Origin: a virus
Virus record (IMG/VR): IMGVR_UViG_3300046167_000873
Span: 62,001-126,000 of that record
DNA: 64,000 nt
Reading direction: 5' to 3' (one strand)
This document shows positions 8,650 to 62,048 of the stretch, in pieces (position 1 is the first letter of the stretch; each line of letters begins with the position of its first letter). The notes below the pieces were generated by a model. It was not told the origin of the DNA, made no database searches, and worked only from the letters and a program-made list of their open reading frames with translations. A program made the translations under genes and the position numbers.

Positions 8650-9003
8650 TTAAACTGAAGTGACGCCGGCTTTTACGAATATTTTTCCTTCCAATACCCT
8701 TTCGACGAAAGTAGTATTTGCTGATGTTGTTGAAATAACGACGTCATAGACGTATCTATCATTCCAATCTAATGCAGCTGTTTGTTCATTTGTCAAAGAT
8801 ATAGTAATAAGGCCATTATTTGCTGGAGCAACAATTTCTGTGTCAAAGCTCACACTCGTTGTAGAGTTATATCTTTTCTTTAATTCAGCATTGACAGTAT
8901 AAGATTCTAAATCTTTGTATGTGACACCATCAGTATCATAAACATAAAATGAATGTGACAAATCAGCGTTCTGCTCAACTGTCAAATCTTCGTTCCTGGC
9001 CAT
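8650..9003 (-). CDS. Small virion-associated protein, unknown function
   Basis: 117 residues starting MARNEDLTVEQNADLSHSF. The beta-rich sequence with DGVTYKDLESYTVNAEL and LDWNDRYVYDVVI resembles short immunoglobulin-like or baseplate-upper-protein-type domains of marine T4-like phages; I do not recognise a named family with certainty. ATG 9003 is chosen because AGGA lies six bases upstream; an earlier TTG (9018) lacks such spacing. A late promoter at 9036-9043 suggests late, structural expression. Confidence 0.65.
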   Translation of the reverse strand: MARNEDLTVEQNADLSHSFYVYDTDGVTYKDLESYTVNAELKKRYNSTTSVSFDTEIVAPANNGLITISLTNEQTAALDWNDRYVYDVVISTTSANTTFVERVLEGKIFVKAGVTSV

Positions 9004-9035
9004 GTGATTTCCTAGCAATAAAATTCTTATGATTT

Positions 9036-9054: not shown

Positions 9055-9666
9055 TTAGATATTATAGGGATCGGCAAAGTTCATAGCTATATTCAACCTT
9101 TCTTCTTCACTTTTATTGGTTTCAACGCTATGTGATAACCACGCAGGAAATACAATCAATTCGTATTCTTTAGGCACATACACCATTGAACTTTTAAATT
9201 GATTATGAAGGTAAGGCGTTTCCATATAATTAGGAAGCATCGAATGTACACCAAACGAAAAGTTTTCGTGGCGACTAAACCTAATTCCACCTTGATCTGG
9301 TTTTTGTTTTAAATAATATACCGCAGCAAGAACTGCACCAGGGTGAGTATGGTCACAATTGTAATCGCCGTTCATATTCGAATTAAACCAGCCATAAGAC
9401 ATCATAAGATTCTCATTCATGAGAAAATATCTACGGCACAATTCGTTAATGTGTTTTTCTGCAACTTGGTACATATTATCAAGTGCAGGATTTATTTTTC
9501 TATCCGCACCTCTTTGCCAACCGCCTACATTAGAACGAATGATACCATCAGGATCTTCTTTACGAACTTGTTTGCAATGTTCAATGATAGCAAGGTTATC
9601 AACCTCTTCTGATAAATCAAAAGTATGAATTGCATCGTGCCATAGTTCGATTTTATTGCCTGACAT
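9055..9666 (-). CDS. 2-oxoglutarate-Fe(II) oxygenase (PF13759-like)
   Basis: 203 residues. The pattern DHTHPGAVLAAVYYLK (His106, His108) followed by YELIVFPAWLSHSVETN (His179) and ERLNIAMNFADP (Arg190) is that of the 2OG-FeII_Oxy_5 type, in which the His residues bind iron and Arg binds 2-oxoglutarate. These enzymes hydroxylate proteins or small molecules; the substrate is unknown. It is third of three oxygenase-fold genes downstream of the Pro/Tyr repeat protein, and overlaps the next upstream gene by 14 bases, indicating co-translation. Confidence 0.82.
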   Translation of the reverse strand: MSGNKIELWHDAIHTFDLSEEVDNLAIIEHCKQVRKEDPDGIIRSNVGGWQRGADRKINPALDNMYQVAEKHINELCRRYFLMNENLMMSYGWFNSNMNGDYNCDHTHPGAVLAAVYYLKQKPDQGGIRFSRHENFSFGVHSMLPNYMETPYLHNQFKSSMVYVPKEYELIVFPAWLSHSVETNKSEEERLNIAMNFADPYNI

Positions 9667-10318
9667 ATCTATGCCCTAATACTAAGTCAGTAGGAGCAAA
9701 TGGCACACTTAAACTAATTCGATCAGTTAATGATTCGATACAATGGTATTGTTTATACGGAATATACAGACAATCACCAGGATGCAACTCGTCTTCTATT
9801 AAGATGTTTTGTGACAAATCAAAGTCCCGCTTCATATTAAATTCTTCTGGGTGTATACTTAACTCTTCTGTGTGTATAAAATGACCTGCTTTATTGCCAT
9901 ATACTATAACTTTACTTACACCATCTAATTGAAATATGAGGTTAGTACAATTATCAAAATGTGGTGCAAAACCACCACCCTGAGCCTTAGAAATATATAG
10001 GTGACTACCTACAATTGGCTGTTCATCTTGTGCAGAAAAAATATCTCTAATCAATTCAATTAATTGATATGATTGGGAGTCTTTGATATCAATTTCCCAA
10101 TTAGTAATTACGAGCGAATGATTTTCTTCGTCAAAAGCTTTTCGTGCTTCTTCTCCAAATAGTCTATTTGATGACTGCATACCTGGATGTAATTTATCTA
10201 TCGCATCCATAACAACTGAAGGATCTATGTGCATATTATGCATTTTTCTAATAATTGCAGGATGATCGTTATACTCCATTTCAGCTCTTAATGCATATAA
10301 AAAAGAAGTTTCAATCAT
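9653..10318 (-). CDS. Cupin/JmjC-type oxygenase
   Basis: 221 residues. The double-stranded beta-helix signature is visible: GGGFAPHFDNCTNLIFQLDG (H120-x-D122), VSKVIVYG, and LHPGDCLYIPYKQYHCI with the distal His192. This is the pattern of cupin_4 or JmjC-like protein hydroxylases (ribosomal oxygenase type), so Fe(II)/2-oxoglutarate dependence is expected but not proven. Its start overlaps the stop of the 10315-11058 gene (ATGA-type), and it overlaps the PF13759-like gene downstream, so the cluster is one translation unit. Confidence 0.75.
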   Translation of the reverse strand: MIETSFLYALRAEMEYNDHPAIIRKMHNMHIDPSVVMDAIDKLHPGMQSSNRLFGEEARKAFDEENHSLVITNWEIDIKDSQSYQLIELIRDIFSAQDEQPIVGSHLYISKAQGGGFAPHFDNCTNLIFQLDGVSKVIVYGNKAGHFIHTEELSIHPEEFNMKRDFDLSQNILIEDELHPGDCLYIPYKQYHCIESLTDRISLSVPFAPTDLVLGHRYVRQ

Positions 10319-11058
10319 AATATTGTGTGCTCATTTTTACTTGGTCGCATAAACATTTTTCGATACCATTGTTTAGCTGTAGATGGTGTACTTCTTTCTT
10401 TGTGAAGATCAATTTTATCAGCAATTCTACATGTAGATGTTATATTACCTTTTTGTAAAGGTATTATATGAAATAACGGTGTTCCAGCTTTAATCATAAA
10501 CCGCCCTTTTACAATAGGTGCAGCAATCATATTCATAGTATTAAATCCTTTGCTAGTATCAATAATGCCAGGATAGATATGAATCTTTCTTGCAATGTTG
10601 CCGTGATAATATGCTGGCATTAATGCAAATGAAAGATCAGTTGACTCAACCGCCCAGGGTGTTGTAAAATGCATTGCTTTTGGTCTTATGAGTTCAGAAT
10701 ATATAGGTAGCCTTGCAGGTATATCTGGGGATAATCCGTTACCTGCTGCTACAATTGGACAATGTTTTTTTAACGCTTCGTCTACAGGTGTAGACCTCTG
10801 ATTAACAGGGTCTGGATCACCATAATAAACCATGGTGCTTTTATCTGATGCGAATACATGTATATCCGTCCATGCTGGCATTATCCAACCGGTGTCTCTA
10901 TAGTCGGCCATTCCTGGACAAACAGTAAAACTGTCTTTTCCGTCTTTTTCTTTTTGAACATTTGATATGTTTTCAGTTTTTGAAGCAAGAGTAATAGGAT
11001 ACCAATGGATAACACCCATGTCTGATTTATCAATAAACTGAACATTAAAATCTGTCAT
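10315..11058 (-). CDS. Conserved phage protein of unknown function in oxygenase cluster
   Basis: 247 residues beginning MTDFNVQFIDKSDMGVIHWY. Recognisable features are CPGMADYRDTGWIMPAWTDI, PYYHGNI-like aromatic stretches, IHIYPGIIDT and AGTPLFHIIPLQKG. Similar proteins accompany oxygenases in marine phages as far as I recall, but I cannot assign an activity. There is no signal peptide or membrane segment. It overlaps both neighbours by four bases (ATGA-type), so it is translated together with the flanking oxygenases and probably acts with them. Confidence 0.7.
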   Translation of the reverse strand: MTDFNVQFIDKSDMGVIHWYPITLASKTENISNVQKEKDGKDSFTVCPGMADYRDTGWIMPAWTDIHVFASDKSTMVYYGDPDPVNQRSTPVDEALKKHCPIVAAGNGLSPDIPARLPIYSELIRPKAMHFTTPWAVESTDLSFALMPAYYHGNIARKIHIYPGIIDTSKGFNTMNMIAAPIVKGRFMIKAGTPLFHIIPLQKGNITSTCRIADKIDLHKERSTPSTAKQWYRKMFMRPSKNEHTIL

Positions 11059-11666
11059 TGTATTTGCCCTTTACCACGCACCCAAAAAACAAGAGTTTTT
11101 CTTATACCCTCACTGACAGGAGTAACACAATGGTGCATTGACGAATCAAATAAAATAACATCACCTTTATTCAAGGTAATATCTGTTGCCCTATTTTGAT
11201 CACCACCCGAAAGATCGATTTTAAGATCACCACCTTTATAGTCACTAGGATCTGATAACATCAAAACGCCTGATATCATACGATCCATTGGAACATAACC
11301 ATGCAAAGAACTATCACGATGCCAACCGTAATATGCATCATCTGAACCGTGGTATATAGTATATTGAAGATTTTCTATATGATCGATATTATACAAGAAT
11401 AAGTCGTAATTAGCTTGACTTACAATGCTAGCAAGTTTTTCAAAAATGAAACCGGTGTTTTCATCTATTGGAAGCCACCCGGTTTTTGTGATGCGTGTGT
11501 TAGGGTCTACTGAGCCTTCTTGCCCATCACCAACCTTAGCATCATCGAATTCTATAATCTTTTCGAAAAAAGTAATTCTATCAATTTCTTCTGCGTCGAA
11601 AGCGCCTTGAATCGTACCGTGCCGCTGCAACGGTACAGTAGGCAAAAGTTTTTGCACTGGGAACAT
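11055..11666 (-). CDS. Prolyl-4-hydroxylase-like 2-oxoglutarate-Fe(II) oxygenase
   Basis: 203 residues with a complete P4Hc/PKHD-type motif set: YYGWHRDSS (H116-x-D118), then GDVILFDSSMHHCVTPV (distal His179) and EGIRKTLVFWVRG (Arg189, the 2-oxoglutarate ligand). Spacing of about 60 residues between HxD and the distal His is normal. It would hydroxylate a protein side chain or similar substrate. It is the first gene after the Pro/Tyr repeat protein; a late promoter candidate (11724-11731) and AGGTGG ribosome site (plus ccacct near 11675) precede ATG 11666. Confidence 0.85.
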   Translation of the reverse strand: MFPVQKLLPTVPLQRHGTIQGAFDAEEIDRITFFEKIIEFDDAKVGDGQEGSVDPNTRITKTGWLPIDENTGFIFEKLASIVSQANYDLFLYNIDHIENLQYTIYHGSDDAYYGWHRDSSLHGYVPMDRMISGVLMLSDPSDYKGGDLKIDLSGGDQNRATDITLNKGDVILFDSSMHHCVTPVSEGIRKTLVFWVRGKGQIQ

Positions 11667-11709
11667 AATAATCCACCTTAAAAATTAACATTATAACATA
11701 CGATAAAAT

Positions 11710-13653
11710 CTATGTGTACTTTATATTTATAAACCCACCAGAGCCGACTGTTGCAGTTGCCTGTTTAGTTGCAGTACTTCCAGTTGATGGAATACCTCTT
11801 GGATCCCAAACAGTTGTTTGAGATGATGGGCCTGTTATAGGACCAAATCCACTTGCATTGGCGCCGGGTGCAGTAATAACCCCTGCGGTTCCTAAATTAA
11901 CGGTAGTTGGTGTTCCAGGTTGCCCTGATGTAAATCCTGACGAAAAGCTGTATGGTTGTACTGTAAACGCAGGAGTTACATTAAATCCACTTGTTGGCTT
12001 TTGACCAGTAACTCCATAAGAATAAGGCTGATTATAAGAATATTGCTGAGGCTTTTGCCCAGTTGTAGCAAACGTGTAAGGTTGTGTATAAGAATACGGC
12101 TGTGGCTTTGATCCAGTTGTAGCAAACGAATATGGCTGTACCAGAAAACCACTTGCAGGTTTTTGACCAGTTGTTGCAAATGGATACGGCGTTAATCTAA
12201 AGACACTTGTTACAGGTTTTGTTCCAGTCGTACCATACGAATATGGTTGCGAAAAGAATACACTTGTTACAGGTTTTGTTCCAGTTGTTGCAAACGAATA
12301 TGGTTGCACTCTAGTACCGCTTACTGGTTTAGTACCACCAGCTTGAAACGGATACGGTTGATTATATGAATATTGTACTTGCTTAGTACCGCCTGCTTGA
12401 AACGGATAAGGCTGTGAAAAGTATCCAGAAGCAGGAAAAGTACCAACAGCTTGAAAAGGATATGGCGCAATCCGAAAACCAGCGTTTGGTGTTTGCCCTT
12501 GAGTTGGTGTAATACCAGCAGCGGTATAATTATATGGCTGTTGATTGTCAACTGGCTTTTGGCCAGTCAAGACTCTCCATCCAGATCTTGCTGTTCCATA
12601 TGGGAATGGCTTCGCTCCCCACTTACTACCTTGAGCCGTATATGTATAAGGCGACGATGATGGTTGATTTGGGCCAGAGGGGTTTCCCTGCAGCGAGGCA
12701 CACTGCGGGATTGGTCTTCGGTTCGTTGAAAAAACACCGTCGGCGTTGATTGTGCATTGAGTTTGCGCAGTCCTTACTTTGAAACCACTTCCTGGGACCG
12801 GATATTGATATTTGTACGAAGTAAAACTAAAAGTACTGAAATCCGTATAAGAATATGGCTGACCATAAGGATAGGATGAAAATGTTGTAAATGGCTTTTG
12901 GCCAGTAGTTTGATACGCATAACCTACATTATATGGATATGGTGATTGAAAACCATAAGATTGCGGTGTAGAACCGAATGTACCGTATGTATAAAACCCA
13001 GTATATGAATATAAAGCCTGTTTAGAGCCGGTTGTTGCAAATGAATATGGCTGCGAACTGAATACACCAGTAACTGGCTTTGTTCCAGTCGTACCATATG
13101 TATATGGTTGATTGTAACCATATGGTTGTTGCTTAGTACCACCTGCCTGAAAAGGATATGGTTGATTATATGAATATTGTACTTGTTTAGTACCAGGCGC
13201 CTGAAAAGGATATGGTTGATTATATGAATATTGCTGTGGTGTTTGCCCTTGAGTAGTATATGGATATGGTGCTTGAAAACCATAAGGTTGTTGCTTAGTA
13301 CCACCTGCTTGAAACGGATAAGGCGTTAACCTAAAAACTCCAGTTACAGGTTTTGTACCAGGTGCTTGAAAAGGATATGGAGTTAACCTAAAAACATTAG
13401 TTACAGGTTTAGTACCACTGACAGTAAATGGATAAGGTGATTGATAACCGTATGGCTGATTATAAGAATACGGTTGTTGTTTAGTACCAGATGAATAGGT
13501 ATTAAAACCGCCAGTAGAAGATCCTCCTTGCAAAGAAACTTCTAATAATTTTCTTCCATAGGGTAAAGATATTTGACCAGGAGTTGTGCGGGTTACATCA
13601 AATGTATCAGCCCATGTCCTATTTAAAAAACCCTTTCCACCGCCAGCTGGCAT
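11710..13653 (-). CDS. Pro/Tyr/Gln-rich tandem-repeat protein, probable virion or fibre component
   Basis: 647 residues. After a short N-terminus (MPAGGGKGFLNRTWADTFDV) come many degenerate 17-19-residue repeats of the type GTKPVTGVFRLTPYPFQAG, with variants such as GTKQVQYSYNQPYPFQAG and GQKPASGFLVQPYSFATT. A non-repeat centre (about residues 285-385) contains the only two Cys (TQC and PQCAS). The Gly/Ala/Thr-rich C-terminus ends GGFINIKYT. No enzyme motif, signal peptide or membrane segment is seen. Composition resembles extensible structural proteins. It sits between fibre genes and the oxygenase cluster and may be virion-exposed. Confidence 0.7.
   Translation of the reverse strand: MPAGGGKGFLNRTWADTFDVTRTTPGQISLPYGRKLLEVSLQGGSSTGGFNTYSSGTKQQPYSYNQPYGYQSPYPFTVSGTKPVTNVFRLTPYPFQAPGTKPVTGVFRLTPYPFQAGGTKQQPYGFQAPYPYTTQGQTPQQYSYNQPYPFQAPGTKQVQYSYNQPYPFQAGGTKQQPYGYNQPYTYGTTGTKPVTGVFSSQPYSFATTGSKQALYSYTGFYTYGTFGSTPQSYGFQSPYPYNVGYAYQTTGQKPFTTFSSYPYGQPYSYTDFSTFSFTSYKYQYPVPGSGFKVRTAQTQCTINADGVFSTNRRPIPQCASLQGNPSGPNQPSSSPYTYTAQGSKWGAKPFPYGTARSGWRVLTGQKPVDNQQPYNYTAAGITPTQGQTPNAGFRIAPYPFQAVGTFPASGYFSQPYPFQAGGTKQVQYSYNQPYPFQAGGTKPVSGTRVQPYSFATTGTKPVTSVFFSQPYSYGTTGTKPVTSVFRLTPYPFATTGQKPASGFLVQPYSFATTGSKPQPYSYTQPYTFATTGQKPQQYSYNQPYSYGVTGQKPTSGFNVTPAFTVQPYSFSSGFTSGQPGTPTTVNLGTAGVITAPGANASGFGPITGPSSQTTVWDPRGIPSTGSTATKQATATVGSGGFINIKYT
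11724..11731 (-). promoter_or_regulatory. Candidate late promoter TATAAATA for the oxygenase cluster
   Basis: Exact TATAAATA on the minus strand inside the last codons of the repeat-protein gene, 57 bases upstream of ATG 11666. Its position next to a gene boundary favours a real promoter, though it also encodes the end INIKYT. Confidence 0.45.
11920..13520 (-). repeat. Tandem ~54-57-bp coding repeats
   Basis: The DNA shows repeated blocks such as those encoding QPYPFQAGGTK and QPYSFATTGTK at roughly 51-57-base intervals, with near-identical stretches recurring across 12000-12420 and 13070-13420. They encode the protein repeats and are interrupted at about 12500-12800. Such arrays invite copy-number change and assembly collapse. 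Confidence 0.75.
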
Positions 13654-13662
13654 ACTTACTCC

Positions 13663-14673
13663 TTATTGTGCAAATCCAGCATTACGGAAACTCAAGCTAC
13701 CGTATATCTGTCCACTTATATTTATAAAGCTATATATGTCTATTCCAGAACTAGGAGGTGGTTCAATACCATCTGACCAAAAAACTTTATCTGCTTCACC
13801 TGATCCTGGCCACGTGCAAGATCTAGCAGTTCCATTATTGTTAATGACTAATGTAAACGTTGTAGATCCGCCGGCTGCGGTTGCAGCATAATTAGAAAAG
13901 TCAATCGAGTATGAAGCGGTTGGTGTAAATGTGTGTACTGACCCACTATTAACATCAAGTGTGTACGCAGTACCAGAACCGCCTGCAACAACCTTTTCTT
14001 GAAAACAATCATTAGCTGTAATTCTTGCTGCATTAACACCATTGTTATTAACTTCAATTCTTTCTGTTCCACCAGTTACAACTCTAAATTGATCTGCTGC
14101 ATGAAATTGCGCGTAAGTATTAGTATCACCAATGTGAACAATAGCATTACCAAGATTAACATTAGCTGTTGCTGTAACATTAGGAGCAGTAATGAGACCA
14201 GAGCCTGATACAGTAATATTAGAAGTCGTTGCTAAAGTAGACGTAAGAGTTAATCCTCGGCCTGTAATATCACCAGAAGTATTAACATCAAATACTTGTG
14301 ACATTGTAACGTCACCGTCAATTGCAACTGTAGCCGCTGCACCTGAAAAATAACGTAAACCAGATGAGTCAAGAATAAGTGCTTGTTTATTGAAATCTGA
14401 GTTACCAGCTGAAGAAACAAATGCGTCGGCAACACCTGATTTTGGCCTAACTGCATATCCAAGTGCAATACCACCTGATGATGCCATTGATCCAACAGTC
14501 GCTATTTTATTAGCACCAGTATAATTGCCTGCTAGCATTAATGCGCCAGAGGTTGATGTTGCATCACCTGCGGTAATTACACCTGAGGATGATCCAGTCG
14601 CAACAGTAATATCAGTATTAAATGTTGTTGTTGACGTAGATTCATCAATGAACATTACATTTACATTGGAACT
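13663..14673 (-). CDS. Fibre-like structural protein, C-terminal part (frame-shifted from 14672-15007)
   Basis: In this frame, from just after the stop of the preceding frame, 336 residues run as SSNVNVMFIDESTSTTTF onward and end with GSLSFRNAGFAQ. The sequence is typical of phage tail-fibre or virion proteins (ATVAIDGDV, TGTERIEV-like strings, VHTFTPTASYSIDFSNYAA, a C-terminal beta domain). The longer open frame back to 14811 merely reads the upstream part out of frame (hydrophobic nonsense). No ribosome site precedes the internal ATG at 14655, supporting continuation from the upstream frame by a +1 shift or an indel. Confidence 0.65.
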   Translation of the reverse strand, partial: SSNVNVMFIDESTSTTTFNTDITVATGSSSGVITAGDATSTSGALMLAGNYTGANKIATVGSMASSGGIALGYAVRPKSGVADAFVSSAGNSDFNKQALILDSSGLRYFSGAAATVAIDGDVTMSQVFDVNTSGDITGRGLTLTSTLATTSNITVSGSGLITAPNVTATANVNLGNAIVHIGDTNTYAQFHAADQFRVVTGGTERIEVNNNGVNAARITANDCFQEKVVAGGSGTAYTLDVNSGSVHTFTPTASYSIDFSNYAATAAGGSTTFTLVINNNGTARSCTWPGSGEADKVFWSDGIEPPPSSGIDIYSFINISGQIYGSLSFRNAGFAQ

Positions 14674-15007
14674 AGGTGTCACCAAGATTAATAATAAAAT
14701 CTTTAGATGTACCGTTATCTGTAATAGTAACTCCGCTAGGAGTAAAACCAAACTTTGCACGATCATTAGACAAAAAGCTTGATGTGCCGCTAGTGGTATT
14801 ACCATCATCAATTCTAATTACAGATTGAGCAGAAGTTGCAGCAGTAACATCAAGTGCGTACGCAGGATTTGATCTGTTAATACCAACCCTATCGGTAGAA
14901 GAATTGACAAATAAAGTGTCTGTATCAACTGCTACGTTTCCACCAACATCTAAGCCGCCAGTGATTTTTAAACCATCAAGCGCATCGAATTTTTGTGAAG
15001 TTGCCAT
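14672..15007 (-). CDS. Fibre-like structural protein, N-terminal part ending at a frame break
   Basis: 111 residues starting MATSQKFDALDGLKITGGLD, containing STDRVGINRSNPAYALDV (a common fibre motif linked to S74-type fibres) and ending KDFIINLGDT then TAG. The sequence stops mid-domain, and the next frame continues coherently, so the intact protein would be about 447 residues. The stop context is GAC ACC TAG TTC; skipping one base after ACC restores the frame. ATG 15007 has AGAGA upstream (plus tctct at 15011). Confidence 0.65.
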   Translation of the reverse strand: MATSQKFDALDGLKITGGLDVGGNVAVDTDTLFVNSSTDRVGINRSNPAYALDVTAATSAQSVIRIDDGNTTSGTSSFLSNDRAKFGFTPSGVTITDNGTSKDFIINLGDT

Positions 15008-61190: not shown

Positions 61191-62048
61191 TTAAAACTCC
61201 ATTATGACATCTGTTAGATTTTTTAGTTTGTGTTTAATAAAGTAATTGAAAAGTTTATTACGTGGTTTGTTGTCCTGTTCTTTCAATTGCTGAAGCGATT
61301 CTGCCTTTATCCTTGCTGGGACATTATCTAAGTCTATCATCATTTTGTTTCTAGCGTAATTACGCTTAAGTTCATCATTCATTCCATTCCAATCTTCGGT
61401 TGAAAGTATCTCATCAACTTTGGTTTGGCGGAGTTGCTTCTGACGCTTATCTACATTAACAAATGTATCATCATCAGATAAGAAATTAGGAACGCCATCA
61501 CCAGAATCACCACGAAGAATATGCGTTGCAAGATATAGGTTAGCGTCCTTACAATCAATCCACTTTTTCTGAACTGGACTATATTGCTTGACGTTACTAT
61601 ATTTTTGGAGTTGTTGGAAATCTTTATCGCTTGAAAGAATTAAAATAGGATCACCACCAAGCTCTCGCCCATATTCTTGAACGATACTTGCAATAATATC
61701 ATCTGCTTCTGCTTTTTCTATAAGAATAGTAGGATAAGGAAAGAATTCATAAATTTCTTCACGAATCTTATTCAGAATTCTGTAGACTTCATTCCAGTCA
61801 AATTGTGATTTTGTGCGGGCAGTTGCACGAGATGCTTTATAGTAGGGGTAAATTTCTTTTCGCCAGTTAGACGAAGAATCGCATGCAATAACTAATTGAC
61901 CAAATTCTTTTTCAAATTGATTTTTCGAAAGACGAATAGAATTAAGAATGGTATGGCGCACTAAATCTTCGTGAATCACACCATTAAAGTTTTTTGCTTC
62001 GGCCATAATACTAGCAATAGCTACATGATTAAAGTCTAAAATTATCAT
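61191..62048 (-). CDS. rnh: RNase H (FEN-like 5'-3' exonuclease)
   Basis: 285 residues (T4 RNase H is 305). MIILDFNHVAIASIMAEAKN (Asp5), VIACDSSSNWRKEIYPYYKA (Asp56), KAEADDIIASIVQEYG and SSDKDFQQLQKYSNVKQYSP plus RGDSGDGVPNFLSDDDTF give the acidic metal sites of the FEN/RNase H family and the H2TH region. It removes RNA primers and flaps. Order rnh..33-59-32 matches T4, with accessory genes inserted. Confidence 0.92.
   Translation of the reverse strand: MIILDFNHVAIASIMAEAKNFNGVIHEDLVRHTILNSIRLSKNQFEKEFGQLVIACDSSSNWRKEIYPYYKASRATARTKSQFDWNEVYRILNKIREEIYEFFPYPTILIEKAEADDIIASIVQEYGRELGGDPILILSSDKDFQQLQKYSNVKQYSPVQKKWIDCKDANLYLATHILRGDSGDGVPNFLSDDDTFVNVDKRQKQLRQTKVDEILSTEDWNGMNDELKRNYARNKMMIDLDNVPARIKAESLQQLKEQDNKPRNKLFNYFIKHKLKNLTDVIMEF

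Follow-up and report, generated by a model that had tools for sequence, protein, structure and literature searches.

The stretch of viral DNA analysed here, hereafter the window, comprises 64 kb (positions 62,001 to 126,000) of the 150.9-kb IMG/VR virus record IMGVR_UViG_3300046167_000873, the genome of a T4-like phage whose terminase has its nearest cultured relative in Sinorhizobium phage phiM12 (58%). Where its distal tail-fibre genes meet the neck genes, this phage carries an inserted cassette of five genes on the minus strand, in which the gene for a protein made of Pro- and Tyr-rich repeats precedes that for a prolyl 4-hydroxylase (P4H)-type oxygenase dependent on Fe(II) and 2-oxoglutarate (2OG), one for a protein resembling the family DUF6065, and those for two further enzymes of oxygenase type. 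The P4H-type enzyme, as argued below, probably hydroxylates prolines of the repeat protein. In their 5′ to 3′ order, and with the neighbouring gene downstream, the features are:

11710-13653, minus strand: capped repeat protein, 647 amino acids (aa), the proposed substrate; N-terminal cap (N-cap) at residues ~1-48, units of ~18-19 aa, C-terminal cap (C-cap) in about the last 40 residues.
11055-11666, minus strand: P4H-type Fe(II)/2OG oxygenase, 203 aa (PF13640, 2.3e-13; His116/Asp118/His179/Arg189).
10315-11058, minus strand: DUF6065-like protein, 247 aa, predicted dUTPase-like beta fold; homologues in the cassettes of loci L049, L177, L179 and L180.
9653-10318, minus strand: JmjC/cupin-type oxygenase, 221 aa (JmjC_2, 3e-11; His120/Asp122/His192).
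9055-9666, minus strand: PF13759/TIGR02466 putative 2OG oxygenase, 203 aa (PF13759, 1.8e-18; TIGR02466, 1.1e-21).
8650-9018, minus strand: LtfC-like beta-sandwich protein of tail-fibre assembly type (PF23926, 2.3e-07; phrog_3304, L-shaped tail fibre assembly, 3.6e-21), a flanking gene that separates the cassette from the neck genes.

The five genes of a preliminary description of the window agree with the open reading frames (ORFs), at the coordinates that it gave and all on the minus strand, and so does the overlapping run of four that it reported: the P4H gene starts 43 nucleotides (nt) after the end of the repeat gene, and consecutive genes from there on share 4 nt (P4H/DUF6065-like), 4 nt (DUF6065-like/JmjC) and 14 nt (JmjC/PF13759). 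In phiM12, no oxygenase is annotated between the tail-fibre genes and the gene for neck protein gp13 downstream of them. Profile search placed the repeat and DUF6065-like proteins in no Pfam family.

The product of 11055-11666 is, judged by its residues and its modelled structure, a P4H-type Fe(II)/2OG oxygenase for which prolyl 4-hydroxylation is predicted. Its ligands His116-x-Asp118...His179 and Arg189 (for 2OG) form the HxD...H plus Arg/Lys signature and are invariant in 18 homologues. Its AlphaFold model (predicted local distance difference test, pLDDT, 90; predicted template-modelling score, pTM, 0.88) has a prolyl-hydroxylase-like fold when compared with the PDB, where prolyl hydroxylases lead (best 4iw3, E=9.6e-13) and the matches, at E values from 1e-12 to 1e-9, include PPHD, PKHD/PiuC-type enzymes, Dictyostelium PHD, PHD2 and vCPH, the collagen prolyl hydroxylase of PBCV-1 (5c5t).

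The repeat protein (Pro 12%, Tyr 10%, Gln 10%) is built of Pro/Tyr/Gln/Thr units whose copies vary at synonymous sites; it has no Gly-X-Y triplet repeat and no Pfam Collagen match. A single-protein search found no match to it in cultured phages and, in viral_contigs, the repeat, DUF6065-like and JmjC proteins searched singly each matched only a contig from the same metagenome; profile searches were needed to go further. These establish, at the level of sequence, that the repeat protein belongs, though divergent, to a family whose N-cap (roughly FNAPG..[IV]P[YF]G....V.G.GG) and C-cap are conserved and enclose very variable repeats, either rich in Pro/Asn/Tyr (Pro-type) or polyglycine (Gly-type). 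An N-cap hidden Markov model (HMM) built without the window protein picks it out of 4868 ORFs at E=5.6e-5, as the sole window ORF reported at E<=1, and one built from Pro/Asn/Tyr-type members only does so at E=8.8e-6. Relatives with other repeats and similar ends likewise precede a P4H and DUF6065 pair, as in L049 (NYNIIPGP/NGPANYNAPT) and L088 (GNPGNAG); a Gly-type relative in L088 matches Pfam Collagen (5e-22). In the Gly-type members, for the most part, most prolines precede Gly (82/93 in L120, 77/83 in L210), chiefly as Asn-Pro-Gly, which fits the X-Pro-Gly pattern of the collagen P4H site (PMC8968730). Its position among tail-fibre and neck genes suggests that the repeat protein is part of the virion, probably as a tail adhesin. 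A bacterial or prophage origin was considered and set aside, an N-cap search of genome_contigs having found no relative; "pentapeptide" proteins of a Caulobacter phage match the L049 repeats, but by composition, and have no annotated oxygenase nearby.

The evidence that ties the P4H-type enzyme to the repeat protein is chiefly their co-occurrence. N-cap scans of IMG/VR, blind to oxygenases, retrieved 25 Pro-type and 80 Gly-type loci, of which those with at least 1.5 kb downstream of the capped protein were evaluable, and partners were counted within 2.5 kb downstream. Every evaluable locus, 24/24 Pro-type and 73/73 Gly-type (97/97), has a DUF6065 protein as well as a P4H-type oxygenase, and so do all 13 clusters formed at 90% N-cap identity (6 Pro-type, 7 Gly-type). 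An independently anchored scan, on the neck protein and again oxygenase-blind (80 loci), yielded four capped proteins, all with the two partners downstream; in that set such genes follow repeat-rich proteins in 4/29 cases versus 17/736 for other genes (p=0.006). The window repeat protein conforms, having a P4H-type and a DUF6065-type gene directly downstream. Gene order differs between the types: repeat, P4H, DUF6065, DUF6065-like, PF11397 glycosyltransferase in Pro-type cassettes; repeat, DUF6065, P4H at most Gly-type loci; and repeat, P4H, DUF6065-like, JmjC, PF13759, with no glycosyltransferase, in the window. On some single contigs, among them IMGVR_UViG_3300042455_000921, two adhesins occur, one Pro-type and one Gly-type; each has a separate P4H and DUF6065, and the two P4Hs there are 42% identical. 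Across phages, as the preliminary description had proposed to check, these genomic surveys show the capped repeat protein to be constantly partnered by DUF6065 and a P4H-type enzyme.

Phylogeny and genome comparison extend this association. In a maximum-likelihood tree of 76 P4H-type proteins, the window enzyme and its L179 counterpart are sisters (support 100/97) within a six-member Pro-type clade (99/80), all six of which lie downstream of a Pro/Asn/Tyr repeat protein; L179 was labelled "none" in the context scoring only since the contig end cuts its repeat protein. Oxygenases upstream of a Gly-rich capped protein, a second arrangement, form a single clade (100/100), and the context labels require 10 changes on the tree versus 22.8 when shuffled (0/200 shuffles). 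Backbones close to that of the window, those of L014-L016 (terminase ~80% and neck protein 81% identical), lack both the repeat protein and the cassette in L015 and L016, the loci where the junction is covered. By contrast, the P4H and DUF6065-like proteins have their nearest relatives (42% and 34%) in L179, a locus of different setting. Since close backbones lack both and the nearest cassette relatives lie elsewhere, these comparisons show backbone and cassette to have had different histories, with the unit behaving as a mobile cassette whose parts move together.

A different account would have the P4H target a host or phage regulatory protein, the fibre region being merely a hot spot for cargo. 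Its closest fold match, PPHD of Pseudomonas putida, was solved with EF-Tu; the sequence relatives of the JmjC enzyme include NO66, YxbC, the L16 arginine hydroxylase and MINA53, which recall the ROX enzymes acting on ribosomal proteins; and P4H-type enzymes of cyanophages adjoin the uvsW helicase. Random cargo, however, would not be expected to show the 97/97 pairing, a separate P4H for each adhesin, or P4H clades that track repeat type, and we regard this account as unlikely. The earlier suggestion that the enzymes act on host ribosomal proteins found no support here beyond distant kinship.

The best explanation of the locus, in our view, is that the P4H hydroxylates prolines of the repeat protein, to which we assign a probability of roughly 0.7. 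The cassette would then be a mobile unit for the maturation of a virion protein, in which a tail adhesin is hydroxylated and often subsequently glycosylated. The P4H, using Fe(II), 2OG and O2, would act on prolines of the newly made repeat region, the predicted sites being Q-Pro-Tyr, Tyr-Pro-Phe and Lys-Pro in the window protein and mainly Asn-Pro-Gly in Gly-type relatives, and the outcome may be a stiffer fibre of polyproline/polyglycine type or an altered binding surface. The earlier proposal of a locus working on the repeat protein was positional; for the P4H, comparison between genomes now backs it strongly, through the blind loci, the six-member clade, the joint absence and the provision of one P4H per adhesin, while for the JmjC and PF13759 enzymes it continues to rest on position.

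Several observations weigh against this explanation. The window protein is poor in Pro-Gly sites: of its 78 prolines, 32 are followed by Tyr and 6 by Gly, so that, if the P4H does act on it, site preference must differ. Its N-cap is the most divergent of its group, and an HMM from Gly-type N-caps only gave no significant match to it. Many of the 97 loci are near-identical contigs. The fold matches of the P4H include, as mentioned, an enzyme solved with EF-Tu. The window lacks the PF11397 enzyme of its sister cassettes, none being detected in the 150.9-kb record by a search in which the control set was equally silent. Finally, P4H-type enzymes that are close in sequence but have no repeat protein within 3.5 kb account for 36/75 representatives. 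This last count refutes the broader idea that all phage P4Hs serve repeat proteins, and it bears on the preliminary description, which held that oxygenases in many relatives lacking the repeat protein would speak against a link: such oxygenases are widespread, in cyanophages and in about half of the wider P4H family, but not in the P4H clade of the window.

The PF11397 glycosyltransferase occurs in the Pro-type cassettes of L049, L098, L177, L179 and L203. PF11397 is the family of Gnt1, associated with adding a sugar to the hydroxyproline of Skp1. By analogy with the Skp1 pathway, in which a proline is hydroxylated and then glycosylated (PMC3515798), in most Pro-type relatives the PF11397 enzyme would probably add a sugar to hydroxyproline once the P4H has acted.

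The protein of 10315-11058, formerly an unknown, can now be described as a divergent member of the DUF6065 type. It falls short of the PF19541 (DUF6065) cut-off, with no Pfam match, and the link runs through homologues: it is related to the second DUF6065-type gene in the cassettes listed above for it, and PF19541 does recognise the first-type homologues of L049 and L088. Its AlphaFold model is of medium confidence (pLDDT 72.6), and all 50 PDB matches listed are dUTPases, the best at E=4.3e-3 and none reaching 1e-3, from which a dUTPase-like fold is predicted; in the cassette the protein may be an accessory factor. DUF6065 was also considered as an exclusive partner of fibres, an idea that was rejected: haloarchaeal viruses have it beside genes for thymidylate synthase or ribonucleotide reductase, a setting that fits the predicted dUTPase-like fold. 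In the haloviruses HSTV-2 and HF1 (L286, L287) the DUF6065 protein is ~40-44% identical to a phage cassette member.

For the two remaining enzymes family membership is clear. The JmjC protein scores 43.4 bits against a JmjC_2 cut-off of 22, with His120-x-Asp122...His192 invariant in 5 sequences, and the PF13759 protein scores 67.2 bits against 27 for PF13759 and 77.5 against 62.5 for TIGR02466 (NCBIfam). Iron ligands had been described as intact in all three oxygenases, which holds for the HxD...H of the P4H and JmjC enzymes; the PF13759 enzyme departs from the canonical 2-His-1-carboxylate triad (HxD/E...H) and has instead the HxH...H typical of its family, as His106-x-His108...His179, invariant in 6 (the window protein and 5 homologues), and is a putative 2OG oxygenase whose chemistry is assigned by family. 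With less confidence than for the P4H, and from their position, we consider that the probable targets of both enzymes are further residues in this fibre or in neighbouring proteins.

A rival reading, held at somewhat less than even odds, is that the P4H modifies the repeat protein while the other two, JmjC and PF13759, were picked up by chance from an oxygenase cluster of marine phages and have another purpose. JmjC homologues were found in marine cyanophage clusters only, with none in the other capped-adhesin cassettes examined. The two genes nonetheless lie in an overlapping run with the P4H and DUF6065-like genes, PF13759 enzymes are also present in the Gly-type cassette of L103, and the cyanophage cluster itself follows Gly-rich tail-fibre genes. 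The latter cluster, the oxygenase-halogenase cluster of Kyanoviridae (Syn9 gp41-54, S-CREM1, P-TIM40, Sf-FP1), resembles the window in this placement and in its overlapping runs of DUF6065-like, JmjC and PF13759 homologues, but is larger, with one or two tryptophan halogenases, several 2OG oxygenases and no Pro/Tyr repeat protein; its Gly-rich tail-fibre proteins fall outside the capped family (none at E<1e-3 with the N-cap HMM). Genes of the Syn9 cluster (L002, gp46-gp54) bear the names of PHROG families, DNA endonuclease V (274), ferrochelatase (3531) and minor coat protein (1644), that match 2OG oxygenases, and these names may be misannotations.

The cyanophage homologues have been read in terms of 2OG/NtcA and DNA repair (PMC3037559), of DNA repair (PMC2984593) and of reprogramming host metabolism (PMC9964418), and such published readings favour viewing the window enzymes as auxiliary metabolic genes engaged in 2OG drawdown, DNA repair or small-molecule synthesis. 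Against this, protein hydroxylases are the top matches by both sequence and structure, the partner is a structural repeat protein rather than metabolic genes, and no tryptophan halogenase was found in the window phage; we hold it to be very improbable.

Some further observations concern neighbouring or similar genes. Upstream of the cassette, 14672-15007 and 13663-14811 (minus strand) apparently encode one tail-fibre protein split by a +1 frameshift near 14675 (GGT GAC ACC TAG TTCC), for which a sequencing error and a programmed shift are both possible. Two more PF13640 oxygenases lie in the same phage genome away from the cassette (G000:C1:127242-127496 and 148578-148778). In L080 (5516-8564), a P4H-type enzyme is directly upstream of three collagen-like GPT-repeat proteins that have no N-cap; in L094 (10592-12569), the Pro-type cassette leads into two genes, one fatty-acid-desaturase-like and one sulfotransferase-like, and a pair similar to these is found near the neck genes in L020 (6762-8831).

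Taken further, and with a likelihood that we place just below one half, the whole may be a phage module for a hydroxyproline-rich fibre, comprising a fast-changing adhesin, extensin- or mussel-foot-like in composition, its own P4H, a dUTPase-fold helper and, as optional parts, a glycosyltransferase and the JmjC and PF13759 enzymes, which would oxidise further residues. One virome survey ranks prolyl 4-hydroxylase with the most abundant auxiliary genes it counted and says that its viral use "remains cryptic" (PMC9301287), and the fixed P4H-adhesin partnership offers a testable answer, virion-protein maturation, for one P4H branch. If this is correct, part of the virome prolyl hydroxylases filed as "auxiliary metabolic genes" would be virion-maturation enzymes, the modification of phage tail proteins would come to include oxygen-dependent hydroxylation and probable hydroxyproline glycosylation, and fibre maturation would depend on the host supply of O2, iron and 2OG. 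No text describing this phage cassette was found in a literature search whose scope lay outside subscription papers and preprints.

The findings suggest that these phages may hydroxylate a fibre on their own surface, in the way that animals treat collagen, and several known systems offer partial parallels. The gp38-type adhesins of T-even phages are distal tail-fibre proteins with polyglycine-II repeats, to which the Gly-type family members may be comparable; no dedicated hydroxylase is known for gp38. In Bacillus, a prokaryotic Gly-rich repeat protein, BclA, is accompanied by a P4H that hydroxylates collagen-like peptides (PMC8968730), although neither a phage nor an overlapping multi-enzyme cassette is involved. 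The PhyA-Gnt1 pathway of Skp1 in Dictyostelium and Toxoplasma likewise pairs a prolyl hydroxylase with a glycosyltransferase that acts next on hydroxyproline (PMC3515798), as the PF11397 enzymes of Pro-type cassettes may do, but it modifies a single proline in a cytoplasmic adaptor rather than the tens of prolines of a repeat protein, and the window has no glycosyltransferase. PBCV-1 and mimivirus encode 2OG-dependent prolyl or lysyl hydroxylases together with collagen-like proteins, vCPH (5c5t) of the former being a fold match of the window P4H and the enzyme of the latter a lysyl hydroxylase-glycosyltransferase. Those are giant viruses of eukaryotes, whereas here the candidate substrate is the repeat protein of a T4-like phage, and the cassette also includes a DUF6065 partner, joined in relatives by a PF11397 glycosyltransferase.

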